Position numbers and translations under genes: made by a program. Below the pieces are notes generated by a model. The model saw only the letters and a program-made list of their open reading frames with translations, was not told the origin of the DNA and searched no databases. This document shows positions 13,129-23,142 of a stretch of 64,000 bases of DNA, piece by piece. The stretch comes from Nioella sp. MMSF_3534 (GTDB lineage Bacteria; Pseudomonadota; Alphaproteobacteria; Rhodobacterales; Rhodobacteraceae), in the NCBI RefSeq assembly GCF_030732985.1, contig NZ_JASHJX010000007.1, forward strand, positions 1-64,000, read 5' to 3'. Position 1 is the first letter of the stretch; each line of letters starts with the position of its first letter.

Positions 13129-14037
13129 ATGCATATCGAGTTCCGCCACCTGCGCACCATCAAGGCCATCCATGACGAGGGGGGGCTGGCCAAGGCGGCT
13201 GACCGGCTGCACATCACGCAAAGCGCGCTCAGCCACCAGATCAAGGGGCTGGAGGATCAGGCTGGGATGGAGCTGTTTGTCAGGCGATCCAAGCCGATGA
13301 AACTGTCGCCGGCCGGGCTGCGCCTGCTGCGGCTGGCCGAGCAGATATTGCCGCAGGTGGCTGCGATGGAGGAAGAATTCCGTGCCATGCAGCAGGGTAA
13401 GGTCGGGCGTCTTCATATCGCCATCGAATGCCATGCCTGCTTCGAGTGGCTGTTGCCGGTTCTGGAACAGTTCCGCGTCGCCTGGCCGGATGTGGATGTC
13501 GATATTCGCCCCGGTCTGCAATTCGAGGCGCTGCCTGCCCTGATGCGGGAAGAGGTCGATCTGGTGATCTCCTCCGACCCCGAGGATCTGCCCGGTGTCG
13601 ATTTCTCGCCGCTGTTCGACTACGAGCCGGTCTTTGTTGCCTCGTCCGAACACCCGCTGGCGGCCAAGCCCTTCATCATGCCCGAAGATTTTCAGGATGA
13701 GCTGCTGATCACCTACCCGATGGAACGCAGCCGGCTGGATGTGTTCAGCCAGTTCCTGAAACCCGCAGGGGTGGAGCCGCGCGCGGTGCGGCAGGTGGAA
13801 TTGTCTGCCGTGATCCTGCTGCTTGTGGCTTCCAACCGCGGGGTCACGGTACTGCCTGACTGGGTGGTGCGCGAACAGCGGAGCAATTCCAGCTATGTTA
13901 CGCGGCCGCTGACCGAAACCGGCCTGACCCGGCGCATGTACGGGGCGACGCGGGTCGAGGATACGACGAAACCCTTCATGTCCCATGTGCTGAAACTGGC
14001 CCGGACAGAGCCGGTAAAGCTGCAAAGACGCGGCTGA
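13129..14037 (+). CDS. metR: LysR-type regulator, MetR-like
   Basis: A 302-aa LysR-type regulator. The N-terminal winged helix-turn-helix reads LRTIKAIHDEGGLAKAADRL then TQSALSHQIKGLEDQ, and residues from about 90 form the co-inducer domain (GRLHIAIECHACFEWLLP). The CHACFEW stretch and the divergent position next to metF support assignment to MetR, the homocysteine-responsive activator of methionine genes. It probably binds the TGAG-N5-CTCA repeat in the intergenic gap and regulates both metF and itself. Confidence 0.85.
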   Translation: MHIEFRHLRTIKAIHDEGGLAKAADRLHITQSALSHQIKGLEDQAGMELFVRRSKPMKLSPAGLRLLRLAEQILPQVAAMEEEFRAMQQGKVGRLHIAIECHACFEWLLPVLEQFRVAWPDVDVDIRPGLQFEALPALMREEVDLVISSDPEDLPGVDFSPLFDYEPVFVASSEHPLAAKPFIMPEDFQDELLITYPMERSRLDVFSQFLKPAGVEPRAVRQVELSAVILLLVASNRGVTVLPDWVVREQRSNSSYVTRPLTETGLTRRMYGATRVEDTTKPFMSHVLKLARTEPVKLQRRG

Positions 14038-14252
14038 ACCGGCCCGAATGAGGCGCGGATGTGGCTGGTTCTTGTCAGCTTTCCGCAAATTGTTCTCATC
14101 TCGCCAACAATCGCCGTCTTCTTAGCCGGAAATGGCCCGGGCAAGCCCCGAAAACCGACCCAATCGGACCTTAGCACGATCACAGAACAATAATGTGAAA
14201 GCAGTGCAATGCAGGCCGGAAACCGGGTTTTCCCAAGGGATTTTCTCCTTGT

Positions 14253-14318
14253 GACCGACAGGCGCGCGACCAATTGGATGGTCGTGTCGGTCGGGACGTC
14301 CTGCGTTGCAGGAGGTCC
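14253..14318 (+). promoter_or_regulatory. structured 5' leader hiding the ribosome binding site of the RTX gene
   Basis: Two adjacent hairpins precede the start codon. The first pairs 14253-14260 (GACCGACA) with 14285-14292, and 14267-14272 (CGACCA) with 14279-14284. The second pairs 14294-14304 (GGACGTCCTGC) with 14308-14318 (GCAGGAGGTCC), with one mismatch and a 3-nt loop. Its right arm contains the whole Shine-Dalgarno AGGAGG (14310-14315), 8 nt before ATG 14324. A weaker 5-bp hairpin lies at 14234-14251. The rest of the 284-base gap (14038-14252) shows only a 6-bp inverted repeat (14089-14094/14106-14111). Confidence 0.6.
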
Positions 14319-14323
14319 GAGTA

Positions 14324-17300
14324 ATGCCTGACGCACTTGAACTGAACGTCACCACCACGACCGACGCCACGACGATTGCCCAGACCATTTTCGGGGACGG
14401 CATTCAGGTGGTGTCCGCCACGCTGACCGGCGCAGCGACCCAGGCCGGGACCTATTCGGGCGGCGACGCGGTCTCTGGTGGGGTGGTGCCGAGCGACAGC
14501 GGGGTGATCCTGTCGACCGGCAATGCCACCGATTTCACGACGGGGGGGACCGGGACAAACACCAATACCAGTGCCGGGACATCCACCGGCCATGGCGGGG
14601 CGGGGGACGCGGACCTCGATGCGATCTCGACCACCTCGACCTTCGACGCGGTGGTTTTCGAATCCACCTTCATTCCCGATGACGACTACATCACGATGCA
14701 GTTCGTCTTCTCGTCCGAGGAATATCTGGAATATGTGAACTCCGGTGTGAACGATACGCTCGGGGTCTGGGTCAATGGCAGTTTCGTGCCGCTGACCAGC
14801 TCGGGCGATACGGTGTCCATCGACACGGTGAACGACACATCGAATTCAAACCTCTATGTCGACAACCCGGCGGCGACTGACACCTACAATACCGAGATGG
14901 ACGGGTTCACCATCACCCTGTCTTTCAAGGCGCCGGTTAATCCGGGCGAGGAAAACACCATCAGGATCGGCCTCGCCGATGGCGGCGACAGCGCCTATGA
15001 CACCAACGTCCTGATCGCGGCGGACAGTATCCAGACCGTTGCCCTGGCCTTCGAGGATCATGTCACGCTAGAGGCCAACACCACCGCCGTGATCGACGTT
15101 CTCGAAAACGACCGCGACTCCTCCGGCGACGGGCTGTCCATCACCGAGATCAACGGGCAGGCCGTGGTTCCGGGCGACTCCGTGACCCTGAACACCGGCG
15201 AAGTCGTAACGCTGAACAGCGACTACACGTTCTCCGTCGAAACGGACGCGGATCTGGGGGAGACCGTCTTCACCTACACGGTCGAGAACGGCGACGGCGT
15301 CAGCGATGTCGGGTATGTCATTATTCAGACCGTGGCCGATGCCCCGCTTGACGGCATTGTCGAGGGAAGTGGCACGGACGATGTCATTGACGCGACCTTC
15401 ACCGGCGATCCCGAAGGCGACATGATCGACGCGAATGACGCGATCGGCGTGAACGGGACCACCGGAAACGACGACTATGTCCTCGCGCATGCTGGCGACG
15501 ATTCCGTTGTGACCGGAGCAGGCGATGACATCGTCGAGGGGGGCGACGGCAATGACACGATCTTTGGCGGCAACGGGCAGGCCAATGATGACGCCACTGC
15601 ACCTTTCGATGGCGATGACAGCCTCGTCGGGGGGGCCGGGGATGACTTTCTCTACGGTGAAGCGGGCAGCGATACGCTGATCGGCGGCACTGGCAATGAC
15701 AACCTGTCGGGCAGCATCGGTAATGACAGCCTTTCAGGCGGGGACGGCAACGACAGTTTCGATGGCGGCGCGGGCGACGACACGATCGACGGTGGCGCCG
15801 GGGCCGACTACATTTTCGCCGACAATGCGCTGAACCAGGGCGATGACAGCGTCGATGGCGGCGCGGGCAATGACACGGTGATCACGCTGGACGGGGCTGA
15901 CACCGTCGATGGCGGCACCGGCGATGACGTGATCATGACCGGCGGCGATGCTGACCTCATCCAGCTTTCCAATGGCTTCGGCAATGACACGATCACCGGC
16001 GGCGAGACGTTTACGGCGGGCGGTGCGGATGACGATACGCTGGATATGTCTGCGGTTACGTCGGGTGTTGAGCTGGACCTGACGTCGAACGACCCCGAAG
16101 CGGGCAGCGTCTTCGAGGTGGGAAGTGCCGGGGGCGACACCGATTTCACCGAGATCGAGAACATCATCCTCAGCGCCGGGCGCGACACGGTGCATCTGGC
16201 CGATGGCGGCGGTCAGGACGCGGTTGGCGGCTTCGACATTTCCGATTCCGGCGATGGCACGGCGGTCGATCAGCTCGATGTCAGCAAGCTGACCTCGGAC
16301 GGCGGCACCACGCCGGTGACCACCACCGATGTGACCGTGACAAGCGATCCCTATGGCAATGCGGTGCTGACCTTCCCGGGTGGCGAGAGCATCACCCTGG
16401 AAGGCGTCAACCCGCTGAACCTGTCCACGGTTGACGATCTTGTCGCCATCGGCATCCCCGACGGGCGCGATTACATCGTCGAGGGCACCAGCGGTTCGGA
16501 TACGATCGACGCGGGCTATAACGGTGACCCGGAGGGCGATCTGGTCGATGCGAACGATGCGTTGAACGGGTCCAATGACGATGTGATCGAAGCGGGGGCC
16601 GGGAATGACTCCGTCGTGGCTGGCGCGGGCGATGACTCGGTTCAGGGCGATGCGGGCAACGACACCATCGAGGGCGGCGCTGGCGCCGACACGCTGCGCG
16701 GTGGCACTGGCGACGACTCGATTGAGGGTGGTGACGGGGACGACGACCTCTATGGCGACGAAAACTCCGACACGATCATCGGCGGTGCAGGCAACGACAC
16801 AGTCGATGGCGGGACAGGCGCGGACAGCATCGACGGCGGGGCGGACGACGACTCGATCAGCGGCGGCGACGGCGATGACACGATCATCGGCGGTGCGGGC
16901 GATGACTGGCTGCGCGGCAGCGTCGGCAATGACGAGATGTGGGGCGGCACCGGGGACGATTACATCTGGGCCGGTTTCAACGACGACACGATCCGCATCG
17001 AGAACGATTTCGGCAATGATACGATCGAGGCCGAGGGCATCAACGAGGTCACCGGCGACGTTCTGGACCTCAGCCTTGTCACCGACGACCTGACCATCGA
17101 CCTGACCGGGTCCAACCCCGAAGCAGGCACGTTCAGCGACGGCATTTCGACCGCGCAGTTCAACGAGATCGAGAACATCATCCTTGGTGGCGGGCGCGAT
17201 ACCATAACCCTGGCCGATTTCGGCGGCGCGGATATCGTCCAGGCCTTTGACATGACCGACAGCGGCGACGGCTCGACCAATGACCAGCTCGACGTGTCGG

Positions 17301-20092
17301 GTCTGACCTCCGACTGGGGCACGACGCCGATCCATGCGGGCGATGTCACGGTCAGCGATGATGGCAACGGAAATGCGCTGCTGAGCTTTCCGGGCGGGGA
17401 GTCGATCACTCTGGTGGGCGTGGCCCCGAGCCAACTGGCGACCGAGGCCGACCTTGTGTCCATCGGCATTCCGCCCGCGCCCGACTTCATCGTGGAAGGC
17501 AGCTCGAGCGATGACACGATCGACGCGGGCTACACGGGCGACCCCGAGGGCGACAGGGTCGATGCAAACGATCATTCGGACGGCTCGAACGATGACAGCA
17601 TCGAAGCAGGCGGCGGCAATGACAGCGTCGTCGCGGGGGCGGGCGACGATACGGTCTGGGGCGGCAATGACGCGGGCGCGGATACCATTCTGGGCGGCGC
17701 GGGCAATGACCTGATCAACGGTCAGGGCGGCGATGACAGCATCGACGGCGGTGCCGATGACGACAGCATTGCGGCGGGCGCGGGCGATGACAGCGTCACC
17801 GGTGGCAGCGGCAATGACTCGATCAATGGCGGCACCGGCAACGACACGCTGGATGGCGGAACCGGCGCTGATCTTATCAGCGGTGCGGGCGGCAGCGACA
17901 GCATTCTTGGCGGCGACGATGCCGACACGGTCATGGTCTTCGACGGCTACGGCGCCGATACGATTGCGGGTGGCGAAGGCGGTGTCGATGCCGACATTCT
18001 GGATGCGTCCTGGATTGGCGCTGACCTGACGCTGGACCTGTCGGCCAATGGCGCGGCGGATAATGAAAGCGGCACGTTGACCTCGACCACAGCGGGCGAC
18101 GTGGCGAATTTCACTGAGATCGAGAGCGTTGTCCTGGGCTCCGGCGATGACAGCGTGACGGGCTCTTCCGGCGATGACAGCGTCGCCACTGGCGCGGGGG
18201 CCGACACGGTCGCGGGCGGTCAGGGCGATGACAACATCGCTCTTGGCGCCAATGATGGTGCTCAGGATGTGGTGGTTCTGTCGGATGGCGACGGGTCCGA
18301 CATCGTTCAGGAATTCGAAGCCCCGATCGACAATGGCAATGGCACCTACACCGGGCAGGATCAGCTGGATGTCAGCGGCCTGACCTCGGATGGCGGCACC
18401 ACGCCGGTCACCACCAATGACGTGACGGTCACGGATGATGGTTTCGGCAACGCGGTTCTGAGCTTCCCGGGCGGCGAAAGCATTACGCTTGTGGGTGTGG
18501 CTCCGAGCGAGGTGGACGGTGCGGCCGAACTGGTTGCCATCGGCATCCCGGACGGGCGCGATTTCATCGTCGAGGGCAGCTCGGGCAACGACACCATCGA
18601 CGTCGGCTATACCGGTGATCCGGAAGGCGACATGATCGACGCGCTGGATCATTCCGACGGGTCGAACGATGACAGCGTGCTGGCCGGTGCGGGCGATGAC
18701 TCGGTCGTGGCGGGGCTTGGCGATGACACGGTGTTCGGTCAGGACGGCGCGGATACGATCCTTGGCGGGGCTGGCAATGACAGCCTCGATGGCGACGACG
18801 TGTTCGCGACCGGTGGGGCCGACAGCATTGATGGCGGTGCCGGGAATGACACGATCATCGGTGACAGTTTCGATGACACGCTGATCGGCGGGGCCGGGGA
18901 TGACAGCATCTTCGCGGGGGCCGATGACGACCTTGTCTATGCAGGCACCGGTGACGACCAGGTCTTCGGCGAAGGCGGGGATGACACCGTCATTGTGGAA
19001 GACGGGTTCGGCAATGACAATCTGATCGCCGGTGAAACCAGCGAGACCGATGGCGACACGCTCGACCTGAGCAATCTGACCGTCGATACCACCATCGACC
19101 TGACCAGTGTGAACCCGGAAAAGGTGACCATCACCGATGGCACTGACACGATCAACGCGGAGGAGTTCGAGACTCTGATCCTCGGCGGTGGCGAGGATAC
19201 GCTGCAGCTTGGCGATGGTGGCGGCAGCGATGTTGTGTCCGGCTTCGACATGGGCGACCGCGGCGACGGGCACACCTTCGACCAGCTTGATGTGACGGGC
19301 CTGACCACCGACGGCACCACGCCCGTGACCGCCTGGGATGTCGTTGTCACCGACACCAACGGCAACGGCACCGGCGATGCAATCCTGACCTTCCCGGGCG
19401 GCGAAAGCATCACGCTGGAGGGCGTGGCCCCGAACCAGGTCGACACGATCCCGGAACTGTTCGCCATTGGCATTCCCTGCTTCACCCCCGGTGCGATGAT
19501 CATCACCGCCGACGGGGAACGCGCGGTGGAGGATATCCGCCCCGGCGACATGGTGCTGACCGCCGACAACGGCTTTCAGCCGGTCCGGTGGGTGGGCAGT
19601 CGTACCCTGACCGGCGAGGAGCTGGAGGCAAAGCCGGAACTCAAGCCCGTGGTGATCCGCAAGGGTGCGTTCGGCAATGACCGCAAGATGCTGGTGTCAC
19701 CGCAGCACGGGTTTGTCATGAAGACCGATACCGGCGAACGGCTGATCCGCGCCAAGCACGCGGCGGAGCTCTATGGCGGGCAGATCGCGCGGATCGACCG
19801 CAAATGCGAGCAGGTGACCTATGTGCACATCATGTTCGACCGGCACGAGATCGTGTTCGCCGAAGGCGCCCGGACCGAGGCCTTCTATCCCGGCCCGCAG
19901 GCGCTGAAATCCATCGACCGAGAGGCGATGGCCGAACTGCTGACCCTGTTCCCGGAACTGGCGCATGTTGCCTTTGGCGAGGAAGGTGCCGCAGGTCGCT
20001 ATGGCCCGCCAGCCCGCGATTACCTGCTGGGACGCGATATCCGTGCCATGAAGAAAGGCGCAGGGGGCATGCAGCCGACCCGCGCGGCCTGA
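14324..20092 (+). CDS. giant RTX calcium-binding protein with C-terminal Hint domain
   Basis: A 1922-aa acidic protein without an N-terminal signal peptide, as expected for type I secretion. Residues about 15-235 resemble the choice-of-anchor-L type domain (SGVILSTGN, FVFSSEEYLEYVNSGVND). About 245-340 is a cadherin/VCBS-like domain with VLENDRD. Residues 345-1715 hold four long modules, each packed with RTX nonapeptides (GGxGxDxxx) and closing with a DQLDVSxLTSDxGTTPV and FPGGESITL segment. Residues 1719-1880 are a Hint_2 domain starting CFTPGAMIITADGERAVEDI, a Hedgehog/intein-type self-processing fold with Cys1719. AGGAGG decides the ATG. No secretion genes are nearby. A surface or released adhesin/enzyme scaffold is likely; the exact role is unknown. 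Confidence 0.88.
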   Translation: MPDALELNVTTTTDATTIAQTIFGDGIQVVSATLTGAATQAGTYSGGDAVSGGVVPSDSGVILSTGNATDFTTGGTGTNTNTSAGTSTGHGGAGDADLDAISTTSTFDAVVFESTFIPDDDYITMQFVFSSEEYLEYVNSGVNDTLGVWVNGSFVPLTSSGDTVSIDTVNDTSNSNLYVDNPAATDTYNTEMDGFTITLSFKAPVNPGEENTIRIGLADGGDSAYDTNVLIAADSIQTVALAFEDHVTLEANTTAVIDVLENDRDSSGDGLSITEINGQAVVPGDSVTLNTGEVVTLNSDYTFSVETDADLGETVFTYTVENGDGVSDVGYVIIQTVADAPLDGIVEGSGTDDVIDATFTGDPEGDMIDANDAIGVNGTTGNDDYVLAHAGDDSVVTGAGDDIVEGGDGNDTIFGGNGQANDDATAPFDGDDSLVGGAGDDFLYGEAGSDTLIGGTGNDNLSGSIGNDSLSGGDGNDSFDGGAGDDTIDGGAGADYIFADNALNQGDDSVDGGAGNDTVITLDGADTVDGGTGDDVIMTGGDADLIQLSNGFGNDTITGGETFTAGGADDDTLDMSAVTSGVELDLTSNDPEAGSVFEVGSAGGDTDFTEIENIILSAGRDTVHLADGGGQDAVGGFDISDSGDGTAVDQLDVSKLTSDGGTTPVTTTDVTVTSDPYGNAVLTFPGGESITLEGVNPLNLSTVDDLVAIGIPDGRDYIVEGTSGSDTIDAGYNGDPEGDLVDANDALNGSNDDVIEAGAGNDSVVAGAGDDSVQGDAGNDTIEGGAGADTLRGGTGDDSIEGGDGDDDLYGDENSDTIIGGAGNDTVDGGTGADSIDGGADDDSISGGDGDDTIIGGAGDDWLRGSVGNDEMWGGTGDDYIWAGFNDDTIRIENDFGNDTIEAEGINEVTGDVLDLSLVTDDLTIDLTGSNPEAGTFSDGISTAQFNEIENIILGGGRDTITLADFGGADIVQAFDMTDSGDGSTNDQLDVSGLTSDWGTTPIHAGDVTVSDDGNGNALLSFPGGESITLVGVAPSQLATEADLVSIGIPPAPDFIVEGSSSDDTIDAGYTGDPEGDRVDANDHSDGSNDDSIEAGGGNDSVVAGAGDDTVWGGNDAGADTILGGAGNDLINGQGGDDSIDGGADDDSIAAGAGDDSVTGGSGNDSINGGTGNDTLDGGTGADLISGAGGSDSILGGDDADTVMVFDGYGADTIAGGEGGVDADILDASWIGADLTLDLSANGAADNESGTLTSTTAGDVANFTEIESVVLGSGDDSVTGSSGDDSVATGAGADTVAGGQGDDNIALGANDGAQDVVVLSDGDGSDIVQEFEAPIDNGNGTYTGQDQLDVSGLTSDGGTTPVTTNDVTVTDDGFGNAVLSFPGGESITLVGVAPSEVDGAAELVAIGIPDGRDFIVEGSSGNDTIDVGYTGDPEGDMIDALDHSDGSNDDSVLAGAGDDSVVAGLGDDTVFGQDGADTILGGAGNDSLDGDDVFATGGADSIDGGAGNDTIIGDSFDDTLIGGAGDDSIFAGADDDLVYAGTGDDQVFGEGGDDTVIVEDGFGNDNLIAGETSETDGDTLDLSNLTVDTTIDLTSVNPEKVTITDGTDTINAEEFETLILGGGEDTLQLGDGGGSDVVSGFDMGDRGDGHTFDQLDVTGLTTDGTTPVTAWDVVVTDTNGNGTGDAILTFPGGESITLEGVAPNQVDTIPELFAIGIPCFTPGAMIITADGERAVEDIRPGDMVLTADNGFQPVRWVGSRTLTGEELEAKPELKPVVIRKGAFGNDRKMLVSPQHGFVMKTDTGERLIRAKHAAELYGGQIARIDRKCEQVTYVHIMFDRHEIVFAEGARTEAFYPGPQALKSIDREAMAELLTLFPELAHVAFGEEGAAGRYGPPARDYLLGRDIRAMKKGAGGMQPTRAA
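15356..19477 (+). repeat. four tandem ~1-kb modules inside the RTX gene
   Basis: Modules start at residues 345, 718, 1056 and 1415 (bases 15356, 16475, 17489, 18566), each with a variant of IVEGSSGxDTIDxGYTGDPEGD. They then contain RTX repeats and end with the DQLDVSGLTSD...FPGGESITL...IGIP cassette. Spacing is about 1119, 1014 and 1077 bases, and the last copy is shorter. The copies have diverged in sequence and in number of nonapeptides. Confidence 0.8.
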
Positions 20093-21103: not shown

Positions 21104-21364
21104 ATGACCTGCGTTGCACAGTTCTGGAATGATGAAAGCGGTTCGGCCACGGTCGAATGGGTGGTCATGACGGCCGCCTCTGTCGCCATGGGTTTGGCGG
21201 TCATGTCCTATGTCAGCGAAGGCGTTGAAAACCTGTCGAACGACGTGCGCTCGGCGCTCAGTGGTTTCGAGATCATGACGAGTTTCGACCAGTGGGACGA
21301 TTTCCGCGCGCAACAGGCGGCAGCGGCAGCGGCTGTCGCGTCAGAGGACGCAGAGAGCCAGTAG
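21104..21364 (+). CDS. small Flp/Tad-type pilin-like protein
   Basis: An 86-aa protein: a short polar start (MTCVAQFWNDESGSATVEW), one hydrophobic helix (about residues 21-38, VVMTAASVAMGLAVMSYV) with the preceding Glu typical of type IV/Flp-like prepilins, and an acidic, Ala-rich tail. The SGSATVEWV stretch is characteristic of Tad-type pilin or TadE-like small proteins. No tad assembly genes are in the window. Its ribosome binding site lies in a perfect hairpin. Confidence 0.6.
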   Translation: MTCVAQFWNDESGSATVEWVVMTAASVAMGLAVMSYVSEGVENLSNDVRSALSGFEIMTSFDQWDDFRAQQAAAAAAVASEDAESQ

Positions 21365-21413
21365 CGGGCCGTCGACAATCACGACTCCCACCCATCTTGT
21401 CCGGACAGAAAAC

Positions 21414-21453
21414 GGATGGCCCTGCCGCTCTCACGGTTGCAGCAGGACCATCC
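21414..21453 (-). terminator. strong hairpin ending the minus-strand small-RNA transcript
   Basis: The 15-nt arms 21414-21428 and 21439-21453 pair along their full length, with two G-U wobbles on the minus-strand RNA and a 10-nt loop. On the minus strand a GTTTTC follows. It would end the transcript carrying the 34-aa ORF and the CCUCCUCCC hairpin. On the plus strand it may also stop the pilin transcript. Confidence 0.55.
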
Positions 21454-21488
21454 GAAATGAAAATGTTTTGGTGCTGAAAAATCTGGGT

Positions 21489-21542
21489 GTCAGGCCCGGC
21501 ACAGGGAGGGAAAGAGGAGGGAGGAGGACAGCCGGGCCTGAC
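21489..21542 (-). ncRNA. hairpin RNA with CCUCCUCCC loop (CcsR/cuckoo-like)
   Basis: A perfect 12-bp stem (21489-21500 with 21531-21542; GTCAGGCCCGGC and its complement) encloses a 30-nt loop. On the minus strand this loop is almost pure pyrimidine and contains CCUCCUCCC (complement of 21519-21527). Hairpin loops with this anti-Shine-Dalgarno-like motif define the conserved CCUCCUCCC-motif stress-induced RNAs of Rhodobacter and related rhizobial small RNAs. The RNA lies 23 bases downstream of a 34-aa ORF and is followed by ATTTTT, so it may be processed from the same transcript. Assignment rests on motif and context only. Confidence 0.55.
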
Positions 21543-21565
21543 GAAACTTGGTGGGGCTCAGCAGA

Positions 21566-21670
21566 TCAGCCGAGCGGGAAAGGAGCCTTGGGAAGAGTGA
21601 CCGGCTTGGCCTGGCGGGTGCGGGCGTCGCGGGCGAGAAGGGCGGCGGCGGAGCGGGAGGAGAATGTCAT
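21566..21670 (-). CDS. 34-aa basic peptide ORF upstream of the CCUCCUCCC RNA
   Basis: The ORF reads MTFSSRSAAALLARDARTRQ and continues with a Pro/Lys-rich end (KPVTLPKAPFPLG). It starts 32 bases downstream of a promoter/operator and ends just before the CCUCCUCCC hairpin. In Rhodobacter sphaeroides the comparable small RNAs are co-transcribed with a small DUF1127 protein gene. This peptide is shorter and I do not see the DUF1127 motif. The ribosome binding site is weak. The ORF could be a leader or chance; the position is its main support. Confidence 0.35.
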   Translation of the reverse strand: MTFSSRSAAALLARDARTRQAKPVTLPKAPFPLG

Positions 21671-21702
21671 TGGTTTGAGTTCCGTTGTCTTCGTTTCTGT
21701 TA

Positions 21703-21736
21703 GTGTATTAATTACACATTAATCCGGGGTGCGCAA
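21703..21736 (-). promoter_or_regulatory. promoter with overlapping GTGTA-N5-TACAC operator
   Basis: Read on the minus strand: TTGCGC (-35, complement of 21731-21736), a 16-nt spacer, then TAATTA (-10, 21709-21714). A 15-bp inverted repeat GTGTA-N5-TACAC (21703-21717) covers the -10 box. An overlapping TTAA-N7-TTAA (21708-21722) matches the CtrA half-site pattern. The same layout occurs before the 109-aa secreted protein gene at 22235-22268. Confidence 0.5.
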
Positions 21737-21813
21737 GGCAAAAGTGTGCACTCGACACAAAAAAAATTTCAACTGAGTCAGACCAGGGCAGAACCGGCCC
21801 CGAAAAATGAAAA

Positions 21814-21844
21814 GGGCCTGCCAACCGAACCGGCTGACAGGCCC
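21814..21844 (-). terminator. terminator of the 109-aa secreted protein gene
   Basis: GGGCCTG (21814-21820) and CAGGCCC (21838-21844) form the stem. On the minus strand the hairpin is followed by CTTTTCATTTTTC, a good T-rich tract. It lies 20 bases after the stop of the minus-strand gene. Confidence 0.75.
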
Positions 21845-21864
21845 CGATCTGCTGCGACGTGGGA

Positions 21865-22194
21865 TCAGTTGCGCAGGGTTTCCATGAAGGAGTTATGACG
21901 CTGGTCCAGAATGGCCGAGTTGGCTGCACCGGTGGCCAGCATCTGGTTGCCCCAGCTGTGGATGTCTTCCATCCGCTGCGCATGGGCGGCGTAGGGGTCA
22001 TAGCTGTTATAGCCGCCATAGACCGGGGCCTGCATCTGCATCGCATAGGCGTCCAGCATGGCGCAGGCCTCGTAGTAGCCGGCGCTGCAATAGGCGCTCA
22101 GTTCATACATGTCGACATACTGGGCCTCGGCCTGAGACGCACCGGAAATGGCAGAAGCGAGAGCAGCGGCGGAGAGGAGAGAAAAGATACGCAT
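21865..22194 (-). CDS. small secreted protein of unknown function
   Basis: A 109-aa protein with a signal peptide (MRIFSLLSAAALASAISG, likely cleavage after SQAEA). The mature part is rich in Tyr, Met and Ala (YVDMYELSAYCSAGYYEACA and YNSYDPYAAHAQRMEDIH) and has two Cys about 8 residues apart that may form a disulfide. I do not recognise the family. It is a single-gene unit with a clear sigma-70-like promoter, an operator-like palindrome over its -10 box, and its own terminator. Confidence 0.65.
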   Translation of the reverse strand: MRIFSLLSAAALASAISGASQAEAQYVDMYELSAYCSAGYYEACAMLDAYAMQMQAPVYGGYNSYDPYAAHAQRMEDIHSWGNQMLATGAANSAILDQRHNSFMETLRN

Positions 22195-22234: not shown

Positions 22235-22268
22235 GTGTAAAATATACACAAACATAAGCCGGAGTCAA
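22235..22268 (-). promoter_or_regulatory. promoter with GTGTA-N5-TACAC operator
   Basis: On the minus strand: TTGACT (-35, complement of 22263-22268), a 16-nt spacer and TATATT (-10, complement of 22241-22246). The 15-bp inverted repeat GTGTA-AAATA-TACAC (22235-22249) overlaps the -10 box. Position and spacing copy the element at 21703-21736, so one repressor may control both transcripts. Confidence 0.6.
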
Positions 22269-22312: not shown

Positions 22313-23002
22313 TCAGCGTTCTGGCAGAACCTGTTGGGCAATCCCGGCAATAGCCAGATAGATCGAGCTGCCCATCAACCCCCAAAGTGCCCAGCTTTCC
22401 GGGTGGAAATCGACCCAGGCGGCCCAACCGGCAAAGCCGGTCCAGGCAATGGCCATGGGCAAGGACAAGGCCCGCCAGCGTTCCGTGCGCACCGGGTGGA
22501 TGAACTTGAGGTTCAGGAACATCCCCACGGCAAAGAGGATGACCAGCCCGAGGATTATGTAGAAATTCGGGCTGAGCGCGAACAGAACCAATACCACCAT
22601 GTTCCAGCAGCCCGGAAAGCCCGCAAAGGAATTGTCCTTGGTCTTCATTCGGGTATCGGCGAAGTAGACGACGCTGGCAAAGGTGATCACGATGATCGCC
22701 AGCCATCCCGTCCAGCCCGGCAGCAGCCCGGATTTGAACAGCGCATAGGCGGGGATGAAGACATAGGTCAGGTAGTCGATGATCAGGTCCATCAGGACCC
22801 CGTCGAACTCTGGCGCATTGGTCTTGACCTGGTAGCGGCGCGCCAATGGCCCGTCGATCCCATCGACGATCAGGGCCACAACCAGCCACAGGAACATGAG
22901 CGACCACTTTTCCTCGACCGCCGCCAGCATCGCCAGCATGGCGAATACCGCGCCGGTGGCGGTGAACAGGTGAACCGAGAGGGCTTTCATACGCAATGTC
23001 AT
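22313..23002 (-). CDS. pcs: phosphatidylcholine synthase
   Basis: A 229-aa inner-membrane CDP-alcohol phosphatidyltransferase that condenses CDP-diacylglycerol with choline in one step. The catalytic region DGIDGPLARRY followed by FDGVLMDLIIDYLTYVFIP has the spacing typical of bacterial Pcs, and several helices follow. FTATGAVFAMLAMLA is the usual first helix. ATG 23002 is chosen; ATG 22990 and a TTG at 23020 are alternatives. It stands alone in the minus direction. Confidence 0.88.
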   Translation of the reverse strand: MTLRMKALSVHLFTATGAVFAMLAMLAAVEEKWSLMFLWLVVALIVDGIDGPLARRYQVKTNAPEFDGVLMDLIIDYLTYVFIPAYALFKSGLLPGWTGWLAIIVITFASVVYFADTRMKTKDNSFAGFPGCWNMVVLVLFALSPNFYIILGLVILFAVGMFLNLKFIHPVRTERWRALSLPMAIAWTGFAGWAAWVDFHPESWALWGLMGSSIYLAIAGIAQQVLPER

Positions 23003-23142
23003 CGGACTGACATGAACCAAAGCAACGCGATAGGCAACCGGGGGTGTGCCGGGAAAGGGCGGGCGGCACTACCGTTAGGACAGAATTTCGGACTTGCCGC
23101 ATCCCGTGATACCCTTGCCGTCCAATCGGAACGGAGGTCCCC

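Follow-up and report, generated by a model that had tools for sequence, protein, structure and literature searches.

A small-protein gene with a conserved RNA tail in Nioella that is distinct from the CcsR RNAs

What kind of gene is formed by a small open reading frame followed by a hairpin with CCUCCUCCC in its loop? The 64-kb stretch of Nioella sp. MMSF_3534 DNA analysed here (the window) carries such a unit on its minus strand, and an earlier note, made from the sequence alone, had taken it for a single-copy relative of the CcsR RNAs. The elements described there were readily found again: a TTGCGC -35 and a TAATTA hexamer separated by a 16-nt spacer, the 34-aa ORF, a perfect stem of 12 bp whose 30-nt pyrimidine loop contains CCTCCTCCC, and, ahead of a TTTT run, a terminator hairpin whose 16 pairs include G-U (Table 1). 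Our analysis upheld a single-copy, small-RNA-like unit that has a terminator and a conserved small ORF, but not the kinship with CcsR. Judged from comparison of relatives, the locus is a real small gene, predicted to encode a 34-residue protein and to end in an RNA tail conserved in three or more genera of marine bacteria, and it is not CcsR.

Table 1. Features of the locus and its surroundings (window positions)
Feature	Position	Strand	Remark
-35 TTGCGC	21731..21736	-	preceding C makes CTTGC
Candidate -10 TAATTA	21709..21714	-	within site 2; choice of hexamer presumptive
Operator-like site 1, palindrome GTGTCGAGTGCACAC	21744..21758	.	upstream of site 2, spacing usually 41 bp
Operator-like site 2, palindrome GTGTAATTAATACAC	21703..21717	.	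over the -10; in nine homologues
Basic small protein, 34 aa, MTFSSRSAAALLARDARTRQAKPVTLPKAPFPLG	21566..21670	-	six of six Nioella genomes and G326
Hairpin 1, 12-bp stem, 30-nt C/U loop	21489..21542	-	kept in six homologues; loop varies
CCUCCUCCC word in hairpin 1 loop	21519..21527	-	exact only in own strain, N. sediminis and N. ostreopsis
Single-stranded linker ACACCCAGAUUUUUCAGCACCAAAACAUUUUCAUUU	21455..21490	-	common to three genera; not coding
3' hairpin, CCGUGAGA loop invariant; terminator together with TTTT at 21409-21412	21413..21454	-	covariation
Palindrome of GTGT-N7-ACAC type	22235..22249	.	in front of the 109-aa secreted-protein gene
109-aa predicted secreted protein, syntenic neighbour with own palindrome	21865..22194	-	homologue in G326
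pcsA-like CDP-alcohol phosphatidyltransferase, the upstream syntenic anchor of the RNA gene	22313..23020	-	

The next gene on the downstream side converges with the locus, and we therefore rejected a role as leader peptide or attenuator for a gene downstream. Convergent with the locus is the gene of a Flp-pilin-like 86-aa protein (21104-21364, plus strand), a homologue of which also adjoins the locus in strain W635. Farther along, positions 14306-20092 (plus strand) encode a 1928-aa protein whose translation, on reading, shows numerous calcium-binding repeats of GGxGxD type and what looks like a Hint-like region at the C terminus.

The small protein and the 3' RNA module

A profile of the 34-aa peptide combined with DNA similarity placed the locus in all six Nioella genomes, the relatives compared being N. 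sediminis, N. ostreopsis, N. nitratireducens, strain W635 and the CG17 MAG. The peptide profile gave no convincing match outside Nioella in a sample of 298 genomes of the family; G326 (genus g268), which did not belong to that sample, has a homologous peptide, MPLHPTHAAALLLQDTRARGKARITLPQPPFSLDPVRHDD. Across homologues the small protein is basic and 34 to 40 aa long. Comparing the window's own peptide with that of N. ostreopsis gave a dN of 0.10 and a dS of 0.77, with 4, 2 and 15 changes at the three codon positions, and the W635 and CG17 peptides gave 0.13 and 0.75; a further pair stood at 0.29/0.65. The ratio was about 0.13-0.45 in most scorable pairs, third-position changes dominating, and was near 1 in three distant pairs, all of which involve CG17. 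By these substitution patterns the 34-40-aa peptide is coding and under purifying selection, the three CG17 pairs being less clear-cut. The 34-aa protein and five homologues had no Pfam match, and a PDB fold search with the window peptide returned chance matches only. We also looked for a relation of this peptide to DUF1127 and found none; the DUF1127 genes sit on other contigs.

Strong coding conservation is equally what an ordinary small-protein mRNA would display, with hairpins that do no more than stabilise the message from its 3' UTR and terminate transcription. This is the main rival to a coding small RNA (sRNA), and it draws further support from the terminator-like U-run in Nioella and from the variability of the first hairpin (hairpin 1). 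The relatives that lack the ORF speak against it, however: G272 and G237 retain the 3' module behind paired palindromes without it, and the loop of the 3' hairpin and the linker are more constant than termination requires. We consider a plain small-protein mRNA unlikely on this evidence, though it is the alternative to be taken most seriously.

The behaviour of the 3' module itself can be followed beyond the genus. A covariance model of the linker and terminator hairpin (R1) matched outside Nioella in g268 (G326, E 2e-14; G272, E 7e-10) and g233 (G237, E 3e-8), so that the module is clearly present in three genera; G181, at 31-32 bits, is a weak candidate from a fourth. Full-model scoring of roughly 100 further phosphatidyltransferase neighbourhoods gave no more members. 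G326 shows the full arrangement of 109-aa secreted protein, paired palindromes, peptide, CUCCCUCCC-loop hairpin and module. Both G272 and G237 carry the module just downstream of the CDP-alcohol phosphatidyltransferase gene, the one found ahead of the window locus too, and directly behind paired palindromes, with neither the peptide ORF nor the C-rich hairpin and with no room for a small protein.

The pairing of the 3' hairpin is maintained through compensatory change. Among eight sequences, 6 of 16 pairs carried changes on both sides, 94% of cells were paired, and the covariation score was 0.315 against 0.139 for shuffled alignments (0/500). Whether judged by covariation score, by cells paired or by pairs changed, 0 or 1 of 500 shuffles reached the observed value, and none of the slid versions of the pairing came near. 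The CCGUGAGA loop is invariant across homologues, and the linker core lies 11, 12 or 13 nt from the hairpin, by indels of 1-2 nt. As the reading frame is shifted by these indels and the homologues have no frame in common, a second coding frame through the module was ruled out; a 28-aa ORF across the module in G237 is without a ribosome site and looks incidental. In G272 the U-run after the hairpin is absent, and the hairpin is therefore not kept solely as a terminator. Because the module recurs in genomes that have neither the ORF nor the C-rich hairpin, the 3' RNA is probably functional in its own right.

In G237, a separate short unit, C/U-rich, driven by a palindrome and ending in its own terminator, lies between the phosphatidyltransferase gene and the module (L144, 2271-2400); it may be a split-off counterpart of the C-rich hairpin.

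The C-rich hairpin and the genuine CcsR/cuckoo locus

The 3' UTR of the window locus folds at -64.7 kcal/mol, compared with -40.9 kcal/mol for dinucleotide shuffles (z -6.1), and perfect inverted repeats of this kind (arms of at least 12 bp, loops of at most 40 nt) number two in the 64 kb as opposed to 0-1 in six shuffles. The loop word has no such distinction: CCTCCTCCC occurs twice in the window, where 0.97 is expected, and 44 times in the genome, where its reversed control occurs 49 times, which is chance frequency, with no genome-wide enrichment. The alignment of homologues shows conservation of promoter, peptide, linker and terminator hairpin; hairpin 1 keeps its stem but not its sequence. 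Conservation of stem and loop, named earlier as a check, was accordingly found in part, since each of the six homologues that have this stretch keeps a GC-rich hairpin, but not each of them the exact CCUCCUCCC word. The word is absent from three of the six (N. nitratireducens, W635 and G326), and in N. ostreopsis it stands at another place in a loop rewritten by apparent slippage. The loops of N. nitratireducens and W635 are C-rich without the word, that of W635 being nearly paired away.

The property that does survive among homologues is a C-rich loop, present wherever hairpin 1 is (6/6) and potentially able to bind Shine-Dalgarno sequences; CUCCCUCCC-like runs are common to the loops of the window's strain, N. 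sediminis and the distant G326. These observations accord with functional convergence, in which a locus unrelated to CcsR would use its loop as a Shine-Dalgarno decoy or pairing site in the manner of cuckoo RNAs or AbcR, and other alphaproteobacterial sRNAs do act through such loops by way of anti-Shine-Dalgarno words (PMC10746234, PMC3927594). Set against it are the rewriting of the loop in N. ostreopsis, its near loss to pairing in W635 and the lack of the whole hairpin in G272 and G237, which leave us doubtful that convergent loop action accounts for the locus.

A genuine CcsR/cuckoo locus is present elsewhere in the same genome, on contig C51 of G000 at about 13490-14150 (minus strand; L085), and served as a standard of comparison. 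Directly downstream of a DUF1127 gene it has nine exact CCUCCUCCC hairpins, so that nine of the 44 CCTCCTCCC words fall within 480 bp, and an array with 8-10 exact words is found in each of the six Nioella genomes. The 54 true CcsR hairpins of these genomes have loops of 11-16 nt. At a permissive threshold, below gathering scores, this locus, used as a positive control, gave five matches to Rfam CcsR1, the best at E 5e-10, and matched ar14 at 3.7e-7. In the covariance search, of the kind that the earlier note had proposed, window positions 21300-21900 gave no Rfam family match up to E=10. A sequence-only model of the true cuckoo hairpins, whose consensus had no pairs, scored the window locus at 4.0 bits (E 5.4). 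We found no GTGT-N7-ACAC site at the C51 locus.

That the window locus is nevertheless a diverged, single-hairpin CcsR member, as the presence, in three close species, of CCUCCUCCC in a perfect-stem loop after a small basic ORF might suggest, is highly improbable, and we rejected it because of the Rfam null result, the low hairpin-model score and the difference in loop and promoter from C51, to which are added a protein that is not DUF1127, the loss of the word in relatives, and one hairpin instead of the repeated short-loop hairpins of CcsR.

Palindromes at the promoter

The CTTGC of the -35 is invariant in nine homologues and is compatible with several sigma factors; its distance to the GTGT-N7-ACAC palindrome that overlies the -10 does not change. 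A second palindrome lies upstream, at a spacing of 41 bp in six of eight readable sequences and of 40 and 43 bp in the other two, which would put both on the same face of the helix; in CG17 the upstream palindrome is not visible. From one genus to another, the 41-bp spacing and the place of CTTGC hardly vary. Palindromes with an A/T core (GTGT-N-W5-N-ACAC) number 22 in the six Nioella genomes, with none for reversed controls, and six are in the window's genome. A family-wide site was ruled out by background frequencies in other genera. Most of the Nioella palindromes precede genes for small or secreted proteins (L079-L082 among them). Because of this enrichment and placement, the data suggest a putative dedicated regulator of a Nioella-specific palindrome regulon. 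A search of the accessible literature for the GTGT-N7-ACAC palindrome or for a Nioella sRNA found nothing.

Two further small ORFs were seen behind such sites. After the locus in N. ostreopsis (L107, 1951-2127) and N. nitratireducens (L108, 2406-2589) there is a third palindrome with a 42-44-aa peptide (MPLSPHLAAVIL... and MPLPPHLAAVIL...), whose N terminus resembles that of the window peptide; this third unit (MPLSPHLAAVIL) was not found in the other four Nioella genomes, the window's included. At L081 1501-1703, and at equivalent places in L111, L106 and L114, a conserved small ORF (MFCTAHHQPRPR...FASI; about 43-46 aa in three genomes) follows a palindrome of the same type and is convergent with a gene for an Fnr/Crp-type regulator.

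Proposed function and comparison with known systems

We lean, with reserve, toward an unnamed coding sRNA family, in which one stand-alone regulated transcript would provide both a small protein and an sRNA. The features by which a coding sRNA would be recognised, namely a conserved small ORF, an RNA part conserved independently of that ORF and a promoter and terminator of its own, are all present in the comparison, promoter and terminator as sequence features. A regulator binding as a dimer, and most probably repressing, would occupy the two GTGT-N7-ACAC palindromes, over the -10 and immediately upstream of the -35, and its release would allow a transcript of roughly 290 nt to be made. The 5' part, with its conserved coding pattern, would be translated into the basic 34-40-aa protein. 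The 3' part, comprising the C-rich-loop hairpin, the U/A-rich linker and the CCGUGAGA-loop terminator, would act in trans as an sRNA, directly or after processing: Shine-Dalgarno regions would be the pairing partners of the C-rich loop, and an RNA chaperone or a target would be bound through the linker and the constant CCGUGAGA loop. Weighed against the coding sRNA were its narrow distribution, the weak preservation of the C-rich loop and the CG17 dN/dS values. Alternatively, the module could be conserved simply as the 3' end of an mRNA, with no action in trans.

More tentatively, we entertain a wider possibility that encompasses the ORF-less relatives: a new family of regulated RNA genes in Rhodobacteraceae, built on one sRNA 3' module that occurs alone or fused to a small-protein gene and C-rich hairpin, with the dedicated palindrome-binding regulator also controlling further small and secreted proteins. 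If true, such a family would offer a natural series of the assembly or dismantling of a dual-function RNA. The analysis corrects a tempting misassignment to CcsR, describes a compact, previously unlisted candidate dual-function transcript whose coding and RNA parts can be separated by comparing relatives, and ties the locus to a putative palindrome regulon with many unannotated proteins of very small size.

Neither the window locus nor its peptide matched Rfam, Pfam, NCBIfam or PHROGs, and likeness to known systems is one of kind. The ar14/NfeR1 RNAs have three hairpins, each with an ultraconserved anti-Shine-Dalgarno word (Rfam RF02344; PMC10746234); the window locus likewise has such a word in a hairpin loop, but its C-rich hairpin is single and it has no Rfam match. 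The CcsR1-4/cuckoo RNAs, as described in Rfam and in citing papers, consist of several short-loop hairpins with the DUF1127 gene ccaF1 and an RpoHI/HII promoter (Rfam RF02791; PMC10253847). On that description they share with the window locus the family Rhodobacteraceae and the order of a small basic protein gene and then a CCUCCUCCC hairpin, and differ in their multiple hairpins and DUF1127 protein, the genuine copy lying elsewhere in the window's genome. The nearest experimentally known analogue, likened as a kind and not as a homologue, is Pos19 of Rhodobacter sphaeroides, a 219-nt RNA with a 150-nt sORF that is RpoE-dependent and was shown by experiment to be bound by Hfq (PMC5036791). Like the window gene as proposed, Pos19 is a short stand-alone transcript from the same bacterial family with a small translated ORF and a separate sRNA activity; the window gene differs in its paired-palindrome promoter and in having a conserved 3' module, which some relatives carry in the absence of the ORF.
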